Of a stretch of DNA of 64,000 nucleotides, positions 8,184 through 61,047 are shown one piece after another; position 1 is the stretch's first letter; every line of letters begins with the position of its first letter. The stretch lies in assembly GCA_913052475.1 (NCBI GenBank), contig CAJXEJ010000005.1:1-64000 (forward strand), read 5' to 3'. A program made the translations under genes and the position numbers. The notes beneath the pieces were generated by a model that saw nothing but the letters and a program-made list of their open reading frames with translations, was not told the DNA's origin and ran no database searches. Source of the stretch: an uncultured Dehalococcoidia bacterium. Its GTDB lineage: Bacteria > Chloroflexota > Dehalococcoidia > Lucifugimonadales > Lucifugimonadaceae.

Positions 8184-9308
8184 ATGTTGCCGGATAGCGA
8201 CACATCGTCGGTAGTTCGAAACGAAGAACGACGTGTAAGCGCTCTATCGTTCAAGTCGTTACAGACCTACTTTGGCGGCACCGTTCTGGCGATGAACGCT
8301 CTTCGACTCGGTGCGGTTGCACAAGGGTTGTTGATATGGGAACTCAGCGGCTCGCTTCTGAGCCTTGGTGGAGTTGCTGAGGCGACTGACATTCCGATGA
8401 TGTTGGTGAACGTATTTGGCGGCGTTCTCGCCGATCGATTTGAAGCGAAATTCCTGCTTAGCGGATCTTCGCTGATTGGCGCTCTGTTGTTCGTGCTTCA
8501 CGGCGTTCTCGATATCACTGACACAGTGCGGGCGTGGCACATATTTGCGATCGCGGTAATCACTGGATTCGTTTCTGGTACCGATCAACCGTCGCGCCAG
8601 ACCTACTTTCCATCGCTTTGCTGGGTTGGTTCGCAATGTTCTCGGCGACGATAGTACTGCCTCGGAGGGGTATTTTTTCGGTTCGGGGGAGGGTGCTTCG
8701 TGATCTAGGCACTGGGATTCGCTCTATAAGGCGACACCGGGTGTTGCTGGTGCCCATGATTATGGCTTTTTCGAACATGCTGATGGTGTTCGGGTGGATC
8801 GGATTATTTCCTGCTTACGTCGAACTGTTTGTGGTGGCAAGAGAGAAGTTTGCTTCATGTTTTCATCGGCGGGCATCGGGGCGTTCAGCGGCATCATGGT
8901 CGCTGGGCGTCTTTCGCCGGGACGACGCCTCGGCTGGGTGATACCCGGGGGGAGCGGCATCGTTTTCTGCGATCATGCTGGTGGTGTCGAACTCGCCTTC
9001 ACTGGCGCTCGGAATGGTGCTGGCTGCGCTGGCTTACTTTTGGAACGGATTTTTCAACATTTCGTCGATAAACGCCGTACAGCTACGTGTTCCAGAGGAC
9101 ATTCTGGTCCGGGTGATGGGCGTATTCGCAATCTCACAGAGCTTCCGGTGTGCTGGGTGGGCTGTGGACGGGCACTATGGCGAGTTTGATGGGCATGCGT
9201 GCGGGAATGATGGTTGGGCCTACGATCATCCTAGTGCTGATCGTCACGATCTTTGTGACGCAACGACAAGTCCGAAACTTGCACGGAGATCCAGCCCGTG
9301 GCGCGTGA
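8184..9308 (+). pseudogene. Decayed second MFS transporter
   Basis: This is a paralogue of the upstream MFS gene that has lost its frame. The first 150 residues, through DQPSRQTYFPSL, read from an ATG at 8184. About 45-50 residues present in the intact copy, from the IERRHMASA region onward, are then missing and the frame changes. The frame changes again near 8855 (into FSSAGIGAFSGIM), near 8960 (into SPSLALGMVLAAL, then VQLRVPEDILVRVMG), and near 9145 (into SGVLGGLWTGTMASLMG). It ends at a TGA at 9306-9308. Four frame shifts plus a deletion make base-calling error an unlikely explanation. Confidence 0.88.
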
Positions 9309-9341
9309 CCAATTTCGGCTTCGCATATAGGCTTGAATTCG

Positions 9342-10457
9342 ATGGACACGATCTCTAGAAATACGAAACCCAACCTCAACGCTGTCAGGGCTCGACTTGA
9401 GCAGCGTGAGGAGTTGTTGTCACCATTCGCTTCGCGTTCCGTCGATTCGGCTCGAGCGAATCCTGAGGAGCCATCGGCGACGCGTACCGAGTTTCAGCGC
9501 GATCGCGACCGTGTCGTTCACACGAACTCGTTTCGACGACTAAAGCACAAGAGTCAGGTGTTCGTTGCTCCGCAGGGTGATCACTTCACGACCAGGCTTA
9601 CTCACGTAATCGAGGTGTCGCAGGTCGGGCGTTCGATTGCGCGAGGGTTGAATCTAAACGAAGATCTTGTCGAAGCGATTGGGCTTGGGCACGATCTGGG
9701 TCACACCCCGTTCGGGCACATCGGTGAAGACGTTTTGAACCAGATGCTTGCGGACGGATTTCATCACAGCCGTCACTCGGTAAGACTGATTACTCAGCTA
9801 GAAAAAGATGGCAAGGGTCTGAACCTCACAGAGCATGTCATCGACGGCATACGAAATCACTCGAAACCGGAGGGACAGTTCCTCTCTCGGTCAGCTGTAG
9901 TGAGTCTTTCTCTTGAAGCCCAGATCGTTCGTATTTCCGATGCGCTGGCGTATCTGGCGCACGACATTCTTGATGCACTTAGGTCAGACTACATCAAGCC
10001 CGAAGATCTACCTGTCGAGGCGGTCGAAGCACTTGGCGAACGGCATTCACAGCGCGTAGATGCTGTCGTGCGGGACGTTGTCGAGTCATCGTGGGACTGC
10101 ACCGGCGAGATCGATGTTGAGGATTCCACTGTAGAAGGCGAAGAGAAGCCGTGGATTCGCATGTCTCCCGAACTTGGAAATATCGTTACCGATCTGCGGG
10201 TGTTTATGTTCGAGCGGTTCTACCACCCGATCAGTGCTTCAGTTGAAGGGCGCAAGGCGGCGGCGATTGTTGGAGTGCTATTCGAGCATTTCAATCGCAA
10301 GCCCGAGTTAATTCCTGCGTGGCTGCGAGAACTCTCAGGATCGACTGACCGAGCGGCAGCCGATTACGTGTGCGGAATGACCGACAACTACGCCCTCATG
10401 ATGGCCGAGCAGGTCAAACCAGGGTTGAGCGATGGTGTGTTTCAGGGTCGGATTTAG
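9342..10457 (+). CDS. dgt: dGTPase-like deoxynucleotide triphosphohydrolase
   Basis: This is a 371-residue HD-domain protein of the Dgt family, which cleaves dNTPs to the deoxynucleoside and triphosphate. It has the family opening RTEFQRDRDRVVHTNSFRRL, then THVIEVSQVGR, the metal-binding LGHDLGHTPFGHIGE, and IVRISDALAYLAHD for the last HD aspartate. I prefer the ATG at 9342 to an in-frame TTG at 9333. It is followed by dnaG and rpoD on the same strand, an order conserved in many Chloroflexota and Actinobacteria. Confidence 0.92.
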   Translation: MDTISRNTKPNLNAVRARLEQREELLSPFASRSVDSARANPEEPSATRTEFQRDRDRVVHTNSFRRLKHKSQVFVAPQGDHFTTRLTHVIEVSQVGRSIARGLNLNEDLVEAIGLGHDLGHTPFGHIGEDVLNQMLADGFHHSRHSVRLITQLEKDGKGLNLTEHVIDGIRNHSKPEGQFLSRSAVVSLSLEAQIVRISDALAYLAHDILDALRSDYIKPEDLPVEAVEALGERHSQRVDAVVRDVVESSWDCTGEIDVEDSTVEGEEKPWIRMSPELGNIVTDLRVFMFERFYHPISASVEGRKAAAIVGVLFEHFNRKPELIPAWLRELSGSTDRAAADYVCGMTDNYALMMAEQVKPGLSDGVFQGRI

Positions 10458-16545: not shown

Positions 16546-16965
16546 CTAGCTCTCCTCTGTTGTCAGCGTTTTCACAAGTTCATCGCTGGCGAGTGCGGTT
16601 TTGTTGATCGTGGTGATGCCGAGCGAATCGTAGAGCGTTCTCGCGCCCTCGTCCTTGACGGCCGTCATCACTTCATCAATTCGGAAAATGGTTTTTGCTC
16701 GTTGGGCGGCCAGACCGTTCAGCGAGTCTTTGCCGGTAGCTGCGATAAATACATCGGCATTGGAGATTCCGGCCTCAATCATTGCCGCCCCGGTCGTTCC
16801 ATCGTGGTGGATTATCGTTATAACACCAGAATCGACGCGCCCGCGTGGAAGCAGAGAGGCCGCTTTCGGGTTCTTTTCGATCACAGTGATCCTGTGACCG
16901 AGATCGCTAAATTTTCGAGCGAGTGATGAGCCTAGATTCCCGGCTCCCACGATTATCATGTTCAT
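16546..16965 (-). CDS. Single-domain TrkA-N (RCK) protein
   Basis: This is a 139-residue protein made only of a TrkA-N Rossmann domain, with GAGNLGSS at residues 7-14, VIEKNPKA after strand 2 and FIAATGKDSLNGLAAQ. It lacks the TrkA-C ligand domain, so it may pair with the neighbouring two-domain TrkA protein to form a hetero-oligomeric gating ring. It is tightly spaced with that gene. Confidence 0.82.
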   Translation of the reverse strand: MNMIIVGAGNLGSSLARKFSDLGHRITVIEKNPKAASLLPRGRVDSGVITIIHHDGTTGAAMIEAGISNADVFIAATGKDSLNGLAAQRAKTIFRIDEVMTAVKDEGARTLYDSLGITTINKTALASDELVKTLTTEES

Positions 16966-17025
16966 ATTTTGGGGCTGTGAGTCCTGAATCGTGTGTGCTT
17001 GGTTAGGATTCGTTATATCAGCTTG

Positions 17026-17493
17026 TCAGGCTCGACCGTTTCCTGCTGTTCGAGCCACCGGTCTCGCTGCGTTGCTGTGTTCACGCCACAAAATTACATC
17101 ACATGGCGCATGTTCGAGTATGTATGGAATGTCGCTCCCGAGTGAAAAAGAGCCGTAATCGGTGAGATACGGAGTTCCGATGACGATCGCATCTGCATCG
17201 CGGACGACCGCTTCATGCACAACCGCAGGGCCGATGTCGCGAGCCTGAAGTAGCTGAGAGTCGATATCGCTTCGAGGAAGGCGAGCTAAGCGTTCTGATC
17301 GATGTAGAACCTGTTCACCACGCGCAATCTGTTCTTCGATTTCTGCATCCAGCGGGAGCGAGCGTTCAACCTTGATGACGTAGATCACAAAAAGACGACC
17401 GCGGTCGTTTCGGACGATATCGGCTGCCTGAGAAACGGTGTTTATATCTGATGGATCGTCGGCGACGACTGCGATGACTCGGTTGAAAGGCAT
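17026..17493 (-). CDS. Universal stress protein (UspA family)
   Basis: This is a 155-residue UspA-fold protein. It begins NRVIAVVADDP and has a central AVVRDADAIVIGTPYL. The usual ATP-binding GxxGS pattern is partly kept as FSLGSDIPYILEHAPCDVIL. USPs bind nucleotides and often sit with transporters. Here it lies between TrkA-type regulators, which suggests a role in sensing energy or osmotic state for potassium transport. That link is inferred from position only. Confidence 0.82.
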   Translation of the reverse strand: MPFNRVIAVVADDPSDINTVSQAADIVRNDRGRLFVIYVIKVERSLPLDAEIEEQIARGEQVLHRSERLARLPRSDIDSQLLQARDIGPAVVHEAVVRDADAIVIGTPYLTDYGSFSLGSDIPYILEHAPCDVILWREHSNAARPVARTAGNGRA

Positions 17494-17566
17494 ATGTGTT
17501 ATTTACCTTCTCTCAACTATTTCCCCTGAATGGGTTCAGACAGCTTGCTGTTCGTATGCTCTGGAG

Positions 17567-52595: not shown

Positions 52596-53081
52596 CTAGC
52601 GTCGGCGAATCGCCAGCCAGAGTGAGCCTTCTTTTCGCGCCACTACTACCAGCGCTACAGCCACGATGACCACCAGTACGGCAGACGTTACGCAGTATTG
52701 GCAGACGGCTTTGATGATGAAGAGTTCGACAGTTGTCAGGTAGATCGAGGCGAGCACACCGACACCGGCGACTCCAGCCACAATTCGTCGTCCTCGTAGA
52801 TCGTCTACAGGTGATTGATAGGCGTGGAGCGCACCGAGCATGATCAGAGCGTATGTCGCCATGCCGAACGCCGAGACAGGGATGCCGAGAATCTTCGACC
52901 ATCCGCTGCCAAGCACGGTGTTACAGCCGCTGAGACTACAGTCAACTTCAGTGTGTGAGAGTGCGTTCGAAGTCAGATAGGTCGTAACGGCAAGCCCGGC
53001 GAGTCCAAGCAGGGCGATGAACAGCCACAGCTTTGACGGTCGATCAATGACGACGGCTGACTCGAATTCCTGACCCGTCAC
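52596..53081 (-). CDS. Vitamin K epoxide reductase (VKOR) family protein
   Basis: This 161-residue membrane protein has about four to five helices. The loop cysteines are Cys48 and Cys53 (DCSLSGCNTVLGS), the conserved serine is in IPVSAFG, and the quinone-site CxxC is CQYC at residues 127-130. Bacterial VKOR reoxidises DsbA-like proteins and passes electrons to quinone, replacing DsbB. It starts three bases after the stop of the DsbA-like gene, so the pair is one disulfide-forming unit. Confidence 0.93.
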   Translation of the reverse strand: MTGQEFESAVVIDRPSKLWLFIALLGLAGLAVTTYLTSNALSHTEVDCSLSGCNTVLGSGWSKILGIPVSAFGMATYALIMLGALHAYQSPVDDLRGRRIVAGVAGVGVLASIYLTTVELFIIKAVCQYCVTSAVLVVIVAVALVVVARKEGSLWLAIRRR

Positions 53082-53084
53082 ACG

Positions 53085-53789
53085 CTAACCGCCTACTTCG
53101 TTCAGAGCCTCTTCGATTCGAACCCGATAGTAGCCATAGTCCCGAAGTCCGCCAATGTTCACGCCGTTCAGGAAGAACGTCGGCGTCGAGTTAACTCCGG
53201 CATCAATGGCTGCATCTCGGTCGGCCTGAACTTTGGGGAGGTACTTATTAGTGCTCATGCAGTCATCGAACTGATCCATAGAGAGTCCTGTCATCTCGGC
53301 GAAGATGCGGAGATTCTCGTCAGAGTAGCCGCCTTCGTTCTCGCCGTTCCAGTTCACGAAAACGGTTTCTTCGTACTCGTGGAATCGTTCTTGCTCGGCG
53401 GCACATTCGGATGCTTCAGCCGCTCGCCACGACTCATCTCCGATAAACGGGAAGTGCCTGAAAAGAATGTTGACGCGCCCGGTGTCTACGTACTCACGAA
53501 TCATCAGTTGCCCTGGCCCGAGGGCAAATCTTGCACAGACAGGTCACTGAAAGTCCCCGAATTCAACGAGGGTTACCGGGGCGTTAGGGTCGCCGATGAG
53601 CGAGCCGCCCGAAACGATCGCCTCTTCCTCGAGAGTGCCACCGTCGTTTGACGGAGAAAAGGCAACGAATGCAACGATTACGACAGCGATAACAACGACT
53701 GCCGCTCCGCCCCACATCATCCAGTTTTTCTGGCCTGTACCGGAGGAGTTGCTCGACTTGTTTTGTCGACGTTCTTGTCTTGAGGTCAA
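53085..53789 (-). CDS. DsbA-like thiol oxidoreductase with in-frame TGA at the redox cysteine (probable selenoprotein)
   Basis: The frame runs from an ATG at 53789 to 53085 (234 residues) with one internal TGA at 53544-53546, codon 82. A membrane anchor lies near residues 23-45. The thioredoxin-fold domain reads LVEFGDFQ, then the TGA, then PVCARFALGPGQL. Homologues have CPVC here, so the TGA stands for the nucleophilic Cys. The rest is intact, including NILFRHFPFIGDES and the cis-Pro loop NSTPTFFLNG. A SECIS-like hairpin follows. If read as selenocysteine the motif is UPVC. The alternative is a nonsense mutation, leaving an 81-residue membrane stub. VKOR follows directly. Confidence 0.75.
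53508..53527 (-). promoter_or_regulatory. Candidate bacterial SECIS element
   Basis: On the minus strand TTGCCCT and AGGGCAA make a perfect 7-bp stem with the loop CGGGCC. The stem begins 17 bases and the loop 24 bases after the TGA, with G at the second loop position. This fits the known bacterial SECIS rules (loop 16-37 bases from UGA, G in the first two loop bases). Confidence 0.6.
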
Positions 53790-59244: not shown

Positions 59245-61047
59245 TCACGTAGGTGGTGGCTCGATCTCTTTTCGTGCCTGTTCGTATTTGGCGCGGCGAT
59301 CTTCGAGATAGGTTGGGATCGGTACGTCCCACCAGCCAACTACCGTGCTGCCCGAGTTCGGGAAGTCGCGAGCGACTTTTACTTCGACAAGTGACGGACC
59401 GTCGTGTGCTAGCGCGCGGTCGACGGCTGCCTGAATATCATCGGGTTGTTCGACCGATTCTGAATACAATCCAAAGCCTCTGGCGATCGTTACGAAGTCG
59501 GGTGATTTTTTAGCGTCCCAGTCGATGCCAATGGCGCGATCTTCGCCGAATTCGGCCATTTGGAGATCACGGATCGAGTACCAGCCGTAGTTGTTGAGAA
59601 GCACGATTACTACGTTGATCCCATACTCCTTTGCAGTCGCCATTTCCTGCATTGTCATCATGAAATCGCCGTCACCGATAACGGCTACTACCTGCCTGTC
59701 GGGATCTGCCAGTTTTGCGCCCAACGCTGCGGGGTACGACCAGCCCATGGTCGAAAAACCACCGGATGTGAGATTCGTTTTCGGCTCGTAGAATGGGAAC
59801 TCCAGCAGGCATGCCTGAGCGTGACCCGACGACGTGACGACAATCGCGTCTCGATCGAGCACTTCTCGTAGTTCCTTGTAGAACCTCGGGACTGTTGAAG
59901 GAACGGCATTTGATTCACGAAGCTCTGCTGTTTCGTCCAGCCACGTTTGGCGAAGCTGCTGAATCTCTGGGAAATAGTCGCTCGATTCGTAGTTTGGCGA
60001 ATGTTCTTGTTTAGTGAGCCCTGCGTTGATAGCCGAGATGACATGTGCGGCGTCGCCTTGAATTCCGAGTTCTAGCTCGTAGTTTTTACCGAGCTCTCGG
60101 GAGTCGATATCGATCTGGATGAGACTTGTTGATTCGGACGCGAACGTAGTTCCAGCACGGAACGATGATGCCACCTGATCGGTGAATCGAGTTCCGACCG
60201 CCAGAATCACATCTGCTGTGGTTGTCAGGGCGTTTCCGATCGAGGTGCCCTTCGTACCGAGGTGCCAGCCGTACAGAGGATGGTCTTCCGGGAAGCATCC
60301 CTTTCCTTGAAGGGTTGTTACGACGGCTGCACCGACACGTTCTGCGAGTTCGATTAGGGGGGCCTCGGCATTGGCGAGGGTTACACCTCCGCCAGCGACA
60401 AGTACCGGTCGTTTTGCGTTTGCTAGTAGCTTCACCGCTTCGTCGATCCTTGCGAGAGCGTCCGAAGACAGATCCTCAGCATCGCCAACATTCGTTCGTT
60501 CGGCAGTTGGCACATCATCTGATTCAGCCTGAACGTCCATCGGAAGGCTGATGAACGTCGGGCCGGGTCGACCCGTTGTCATCTCTCGGAATGCGCTGGC
60601 GAGGTCATCAAATAGCGCTTTCTGTGAACGGGGTCGGTAGCTGGCTTTCACCAACGGTTCGAGTACTGAAGGAATATCGGCGGGTCGTTTTCGTTCGAGT
60701 TCCTGTAGAACACCTCGACCCTCCATATAAGTGTGAGTTTCGCCCGACATGACGAGTGCTGCAGTGGAGTCGACATAACTGGCTCCGAGACCGATGGCGG
60801 TATTCAGGGCGCCGGGGCCAATCGACGTAAACACAGCCAATGGCTGACCGGAAACACGGTAGTAGCCGTCGGCGAGATGCACCGCGCTCTGTTCGTGTCG
60901 AACCTGGAGAATCTTAATCTGATCTTGAACCGTACGAAAAGCATCGAGCATTGCCACGATACCGTGTCCGGGAATCCCGACCAGGTATGGCACTCGTTCA
61001 GCAAGTAGTCGATCTCGAACTATTTCACCACCGGTTCGTTTAGTCAC
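59245..61047 (-). CDS. Thiamine pyrophosphate-dependent enzyme (acetolactate synthase-like)
   Basis: This 600-residue protein has the three domains of the acetolactate synthase/benzoylformate decarboxylase family. The Pyr domain has VGIPGHG and the catalytic Glu in QVRHEQSAVHLADGYYR. The central domain has PVLVAGGGVTLANAE. The PP domain has GGFSTMGWSYPAALGAKLAD and the TPP-magnesium motif GDGDFMMTMQE...LLNN. The catalytic role (carboligation or decarboxylation of a 2-keto acid) cannot be fixed. It is upstream of the aldolase on the same strand, so both may act in one keto-acid pathway. Confidence 0.9.
   Translation of the reverse strand: MTKRTGGEIVRDRLLAERVPYLVGIPGHGIVAMLDAFRTVQDQIKILQVRHEQSAVHLADGYYRVSGQPLAVFTSIGPGALNTAIGLGASYVDSTAALVMSGETHTYMEGRGVLQELERKRPADIPSVLEPLVKASYRPRSQKALFDDLASAFREMTTGRPGPTFISLPMDVQAESDDVPTAERTNVGDAEDLSSDALARIDEAVKLLANAKRPVLVAGGGVTLANAEAPLIELAERVGAAVVTTLQGKGCFPEDHPLYGWHLGTKGTSIGNALTTTADVILAVGTRFTDQVASSFRAGTTFASESTSLIQIDIDSRELGKNYELELGIQGDAAHVISAINAGLTKQEHSPNYESSDYFPEIQQLRQTWLDETAELRESNAVPSTVPRFYKELREVLDRDAIVVTSSGHAQACLLEFPFYEPKTNLTSGGFSTMGWSYPAALGAKLADPDRQVVAVIGDGDFMMTMQEMATAKEYGINVVIVLLNNYGWYSIRDLQMAEFGEDRAIGIDWDAKKSPDFVTIARGFGLYSESVEQPDDIQAAVDRALAHDGPSLVEVKVARDFPNSGSTVVGWWDVPIPTYLEDRRAKYEQARKEIEPPPT

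Follow-up and report, generated by a model that had tools for sequence, protein, structure and literature searches.

A conserved in-frame UGA in a DsbA/BdbD-type gene beside VKOR points to a selenoprotein in an uncultured Dehalococcoidia bacterium

In the window, i.e. the whole stretch of 64,000 nucleotides analysed here from an uncultured Dehalococcoidia bacterium, an open frame on the minus strand (53085..53789) runs from a TTG start at 53789 to a TAG stop at 53087-53085, and comprises 234 codons plus the stop with one in-frame TGA. The earlier note had given the coordinates of this feature correctly, while leaving its strand unstated, and it had described the frame as broken by a TGA alone; the same stop is found here, at 53546-53544 on the minus strand (codon 82, 53544..53546). 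Reading through it gives EFGDFQ-U-PVCARF with the redox motif UPVC, and the TGA thereby stands where a CxxC motif of the DsbA/BdbD type has its first Cys, as had been claimed. The frame is a candidate gene for a selenoprotein of 234 amino acids with a DsbA/BdbD-type thioredoxin fold and a single predicted membrane pass, in which the UGA would specify selenocysteine (Sec) and the TGT codon at 53535..53537 the resolving Cys85. A Ser-Thr-Pro segment in the region S201-T202-P203 (53178..53186, minus) is expected to form the cis-Pro loop. On the same strand, 3 nt after the stop, starts a gene for a protein of 161 amino acids from the vitamin K epoxide reductase (VKOR) family (52596..53081; Pfam VKOR, 81.1 bits), the presumed redox partner.

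The translation matches Pfam Thioredoxin_4 (PF13462) with 108.5 bits (5e-31) and DSBA (PF01323) with 44.5 bits (2e-11), over the gathering score and in combination with UxxC, which is how a DsbA-like/Thioredoxin_4 selenoprotein is recognised. Homologues are present in 53 of the 149 genomes searched, a search of viral contigs yielded no relative, and the best sequence match of their family profile is BdbD from Bacillus subtilis (1.6e-37), followed by the corynebacterial, Wolbachia and staphylococcal DsbA. In the AlphaFold2 model, where the pLDDT of the domain is mostly >90 (block means 92-98), residue 82 opens the first helix of the thioredoxin domain, and the top structures retrieved with Foldseek are DsbA and BdbD (for BdbD, TM 0.85 by target length). 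The invariant columns of the family include U82 (aligned as Cys in the profile), C85, T202 and P203, although the invariance of C85 fails in the raw DNA of one congener, G004, which has TGA there. A helix at residues 27-44 (53658..53711, minus), modelled with low confidence, matches a hydrophobic run of the translation and suggests an N-terminal membrane anchor. The translation has no Cys within the N-terminal 81 residues, and hence no lipobox Cys.

All 14 loci found in the genus, that of the window genome included, have the TGA at precisely this codon, and apart from G004 they contain no other in-frame stop. In five of the 18 other genomes of the genus that were searched, all of them drafts, no match to the gene was found, and in G001, a draft genome with the TGA form, the tRNA-Sec went undetected in a second search as well; draft incompleteness is the likely cause of both. 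Outside the genus, within its family, order and class, the redox codon is TGA or TGC/TGT, the Cys homologues lining up with the UGA; in a regular-expression survey, 58 loci yielded 31 distinct TGA sites. Other classes of Chloroflexota also contain family members with Sec (TGA), namely in a Caldilineae MAG (L112) and an Anaerolineae MAG (L119), with a different sequence after the TGA. The coding sequence is conserved on both sides of the in-frame UGA. A pseudogene, made by a recent nonsense mutation or by an assembly error at the Cys codon, is hardly credible: a single TGC/TGT-to-TGA change in a MAG would be enough to produce it in one genome, but a random nonsense mutation, already called unlikely in the earlier note, is refuted by a TGA common to 14 species-level genomes with proteins about 60-77% identical, a pseudogene is excluded because purifying selection past the TGA is strong (pN 0.11-0.20 vs pS 0.63-0.87), and the hairpin following the TGA is both frozen at synonymous sites and covarying.

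This hairpin (53508..53527, minus; TTGCCCT-CGGGCC-AGGGCAA when read from 53527 to 53508) starts at the 17th nucleotide after the TGA. Its stem, UUGCCCU/AGGGCAA, has seven perfect pairs, and its loop, CGGGCC, begins 23 nt past the TGA and consists of 6 nt with G as the second base; the energy of the segment is about -10 kcal/mol. The published rules for bacterial SECIS (bSECIS) elements, a loop of 3-9 nt with a G in its first two positions, a distance of 16-37 nt from the UGA and an MFE <= -7.5 kcal/mol (PMC13188914), are thus obeyed by the SECIS-like hairpin that had been noticed at this place. As proof of a hairpin, the folding energy was dropped in favour of conservation tests, since it is unexceptional with respect to shuffles (z = 0.52). 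Among the 14 genus members, the hairpin codons 89-95 are the most frozen stretch of the gene, with a synonymous identity of 100% vs a gene mean of 0.498, and pS equals 0 over these codons in every comparison. When 22 TGA forms are compared, 99.4% of cells are paired and three of the seven pairs have undergone compensatory change on both sides, such changes being seen across genera; slid controls pair at <=54%, and neither these nor shuffles match the hairpin. Its conservation is far beyond chance. A search of the whole window with Rfam returned nothing at the gathering score, and hence no support for the hairpin. With a SECIS model, the only strong match in the organism's own genome is the family hairpin (E 1.2e-9), and because the model finds no other strong site even though selD has its own TGA, it is specific to the DsbA-like family.

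The element varies between lineages. In L185 the stem is CTTCCT/AGGAAG with an unchanged loop, and in genus g11 another stem is built around CGGGA; the Sec homologues of this genus (L184, L188-L192) show the stem GGCACCG/CGGTTGCC with a similar, CGGG-type loop. The homologues in genus g6, a sister genus with small genomes, have Cys (TGC), and despite nearly the same residues in this region (TLGPG) they use other codons and have lost the hairpin. No selA was found in g6, no selB at the threshold applied, no selD above the cut-off and no tRNA-Sec hit that scored like the true ones: this genus has lost the Sec machinery, so that here Cys relatives with TGC and without hairpin coincide with a genome without Sec genes. 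Two loci of family f22 with the Cys form, L042 and L044, still show a hairpin past their Cys codon (in L042, TTCGCTCGGGAGAGCGAA), and their genomes hold tRNA-Sec; possibly, this hairpin is a fossil SECIS left after a change from Sec to Cys.

The draft genome to which the window belongs (2.13 Mb, 86 contigs, 90.6% complete) contains tRNA-Sec with anticodon UCA (67.7 bits), selA (504 bits), selB (290 bits, running off a contig end) and selD (365.8 bits, with its own in-frame TGA). All four Sec genes that the earlier note had proposed to look for are therefore present, selB incompletely, and selA and a full-length selB were found in other genus members. One could still suppose that UGA has been reassigned throughout the genome, for instance to Trp, or that translation terminates normally and the second half starts separately, as UGA is a rare stop here (one of the 12 neighbouring genes checked) and the second half contains an ATG at codon 96. 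However, UGA ends the gene at 59245 in the window, as it does the homologue in G004, distant homologues have Cys and not Trp at the TGA position, and a start at codon 96 would lose the redox motif, which makes either variant very improbable. The conserved UGA, the SECIS element, the Sec machinery, the fold and the adjacent VKOR are established by sequence and comparison, and from these I infer the presence of Sec in the protein: UGA codon 82 is almost certainly decoded as selenocysteine, with a probability of about 95%, in line with the UPVC selenoprotein that had been proposed from the TGA and hairpin. This decoding would follow the standard bacterial mechanism: the hairpin, as a bSECIS within the gene itself, would recruit the SelB-GTP-Sec-tRNA(UCA) complex, by which the UGA would be read as Sec.

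On inspection, most other frames in the window that are joined by a TGA look like chance or antisense frames. In one frame on the minus strand, 16552-17502, Usp (universal stress protein) and TrkA_N domains are found with a TGA between them, most likely as two tandem ordinary genes. On the plus strand, an open frame of about 278 codons at 8522-9355 is interrupted by one TGA at 8939-8941; it has no Pfam match and is probably due to chance.

If the gene encodes a selenoprotein, its neighbourhood gives an indication of function. VKOR adjoins it downstream at every one of the 14 genus loci and at most distant loci, and this conserved adjacency, together with homology, makes a VKOR-recycled, membrane-anchored extracytoplasmic thiol oxidase the likely role. 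The product would be a DsbA/BdbD-type thioredoxin fold, anchored in the membrane and probably facing outward, with Sec82 as the nucleophile and Cys85 as the resolving residue. VKOR would use quinone to oxidise this pair to a selenylsulfide, and the oxidised protein would hand the oxidation on to the thiols of secreted or membrane proteins. Topology, substrates and the direction of electron flow, which would pass from substrate thiols via Sec82/Cys85 and VKOR to quinone, I infer from homology and gene order. Alternatively, the selenoprotein could act mainly as an extracytoplasmic reductase, as a DsbG-like isomerase or as a thiol peroxidase. The closest named family, NF041057, is placed as DsbG-like in the review literature, some distant Sec homologues are found in lipoproteins or fused to YceI, and beside one partial Sec locus, L036, no adjoining VKOR match was seen. 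I nevertheless consider such a role unlikely, as VKOR lies directly downstream at all 14 loci of the genus and at most others, sequence and fold are closest to the monomeric DsbA/BdbD oxidases, and the protein shows no dimerisation domain of the DsbC/DsbG type. In L181 (G148 C4) and L182 (G104 C11), the Sec DsbA-type domain is fused behind YceI, apparently in lipoproteins.

The congener G004 (L020/L187, C46:156201-156890) departs from the pattern in having TGA at both redox positions, resulting in UPVU, which among 250 genomes of the order occurs nowhere else with this type of SECIS. Only 14 nt separate the second UGA from the loop, a shorter distance than usual, and the VKOR gene downstream is frameshifted by an out-of-frame deletion. 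Because the second UGA is too near the loop and VKOR is frameshifted, decay or an error in the sequence is here just as probable as a diselenide enzyme.

Selenoproteins with UxxC in a DsbA-like fold first came to light in the Sargasso Sea survey (PMC1088965), and a 2026 review lists both DsbG-like NF041057 and DsbA-like PF01323 with UxxC (PMC13188914; also PMC9312934). With NF041057, the Rcas_1661 family of thioredoxin-like (seleno)lipoproteins, the window protein has the Thioredoxin_4 fold, UxxC (for that family on the authority of the review, PMC13188914) and membrane association in common, and it aligns over residues 59-225 (E 1.3e-36). I reject membership, however, since the score of 126.5 bits stays below the curated cut-off of 190, which by the curators' rule makes it a non-member, and since NF041057 has a lipoprotein signal whereas the window protein has an N-terminal transmembrane anchor and no lipobox Cys. 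A homologue from an uncultured Roseiflexus (L145) has Cys and gives no sequence confirmation of the Sec position of Rcas_1661. The Sargasso DsbA-like selenoprotein (form 1, PF01323) has in common with the window protein PF01323, for which the latter exceeds the gathering score, and UxxC with a bSECIS directly after the UGA; it was assigned in the survey to COG2761, whereas the window protein scores better with Thioredoxin_4 (PF13462), and the available part of the survey leaves a VKOR neighbour unmentioned, which the window protein has (PMC1088965).

In the solved structures of B. subtilis BdbD and the actinobacterial DsbA/TsdA, the CxxC opens the first helix and a cis-Pro is present, as in the window protein, but Cys takes the place of Sec. 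BdbD is recycled by its partner, the DsbB-type BdbC, in contrast to the VKOR found next to the window gene. In mycobacterial and cyanobacterial VKOR systems, VKOR is coupled with an extracytoplasmic DsbA-type protein. The coupling of the genes is alike in these pairs and in the window, but the window partner has Sec, while to my knowledge the described partners use Cys. The gene therefore fits the wider Thioredoxin_4/DSBA kind of UxxC protein, in which DsbA- and DsbG-like proteins with Sec have already been catalogued, and the adjacent VKOR is a useful addition to these known selenoproteins.

Automatic annotation probably sees a short open reading frame and an unrelated fragment at this locus, in which case the enzyme would go unnoticed throughout a whole clade of Chloroflexota. 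For the class of Sec-containing DsbA/DsbG proteins, which is largely uncharacterised according to the 2026 review, the VKOR neighbour suggests both a partner and a direction. Sec in an oxidising relay bears on the question why Sec replaces Cys, and the sister genus with the Cys form and without Sec genes offers a natural comparison. More tentatively, and with some doubt, the pathway from VKOR to DsbA, as the main one for making disulfides outside the cytoplasm, may in some Chloroflexota proceed via a selenylsulfide and, within the lineage of G004, via a diselenide (UPVU); if so, selenium would have a place in the envelope's dedicated relay for oxidising thiols.
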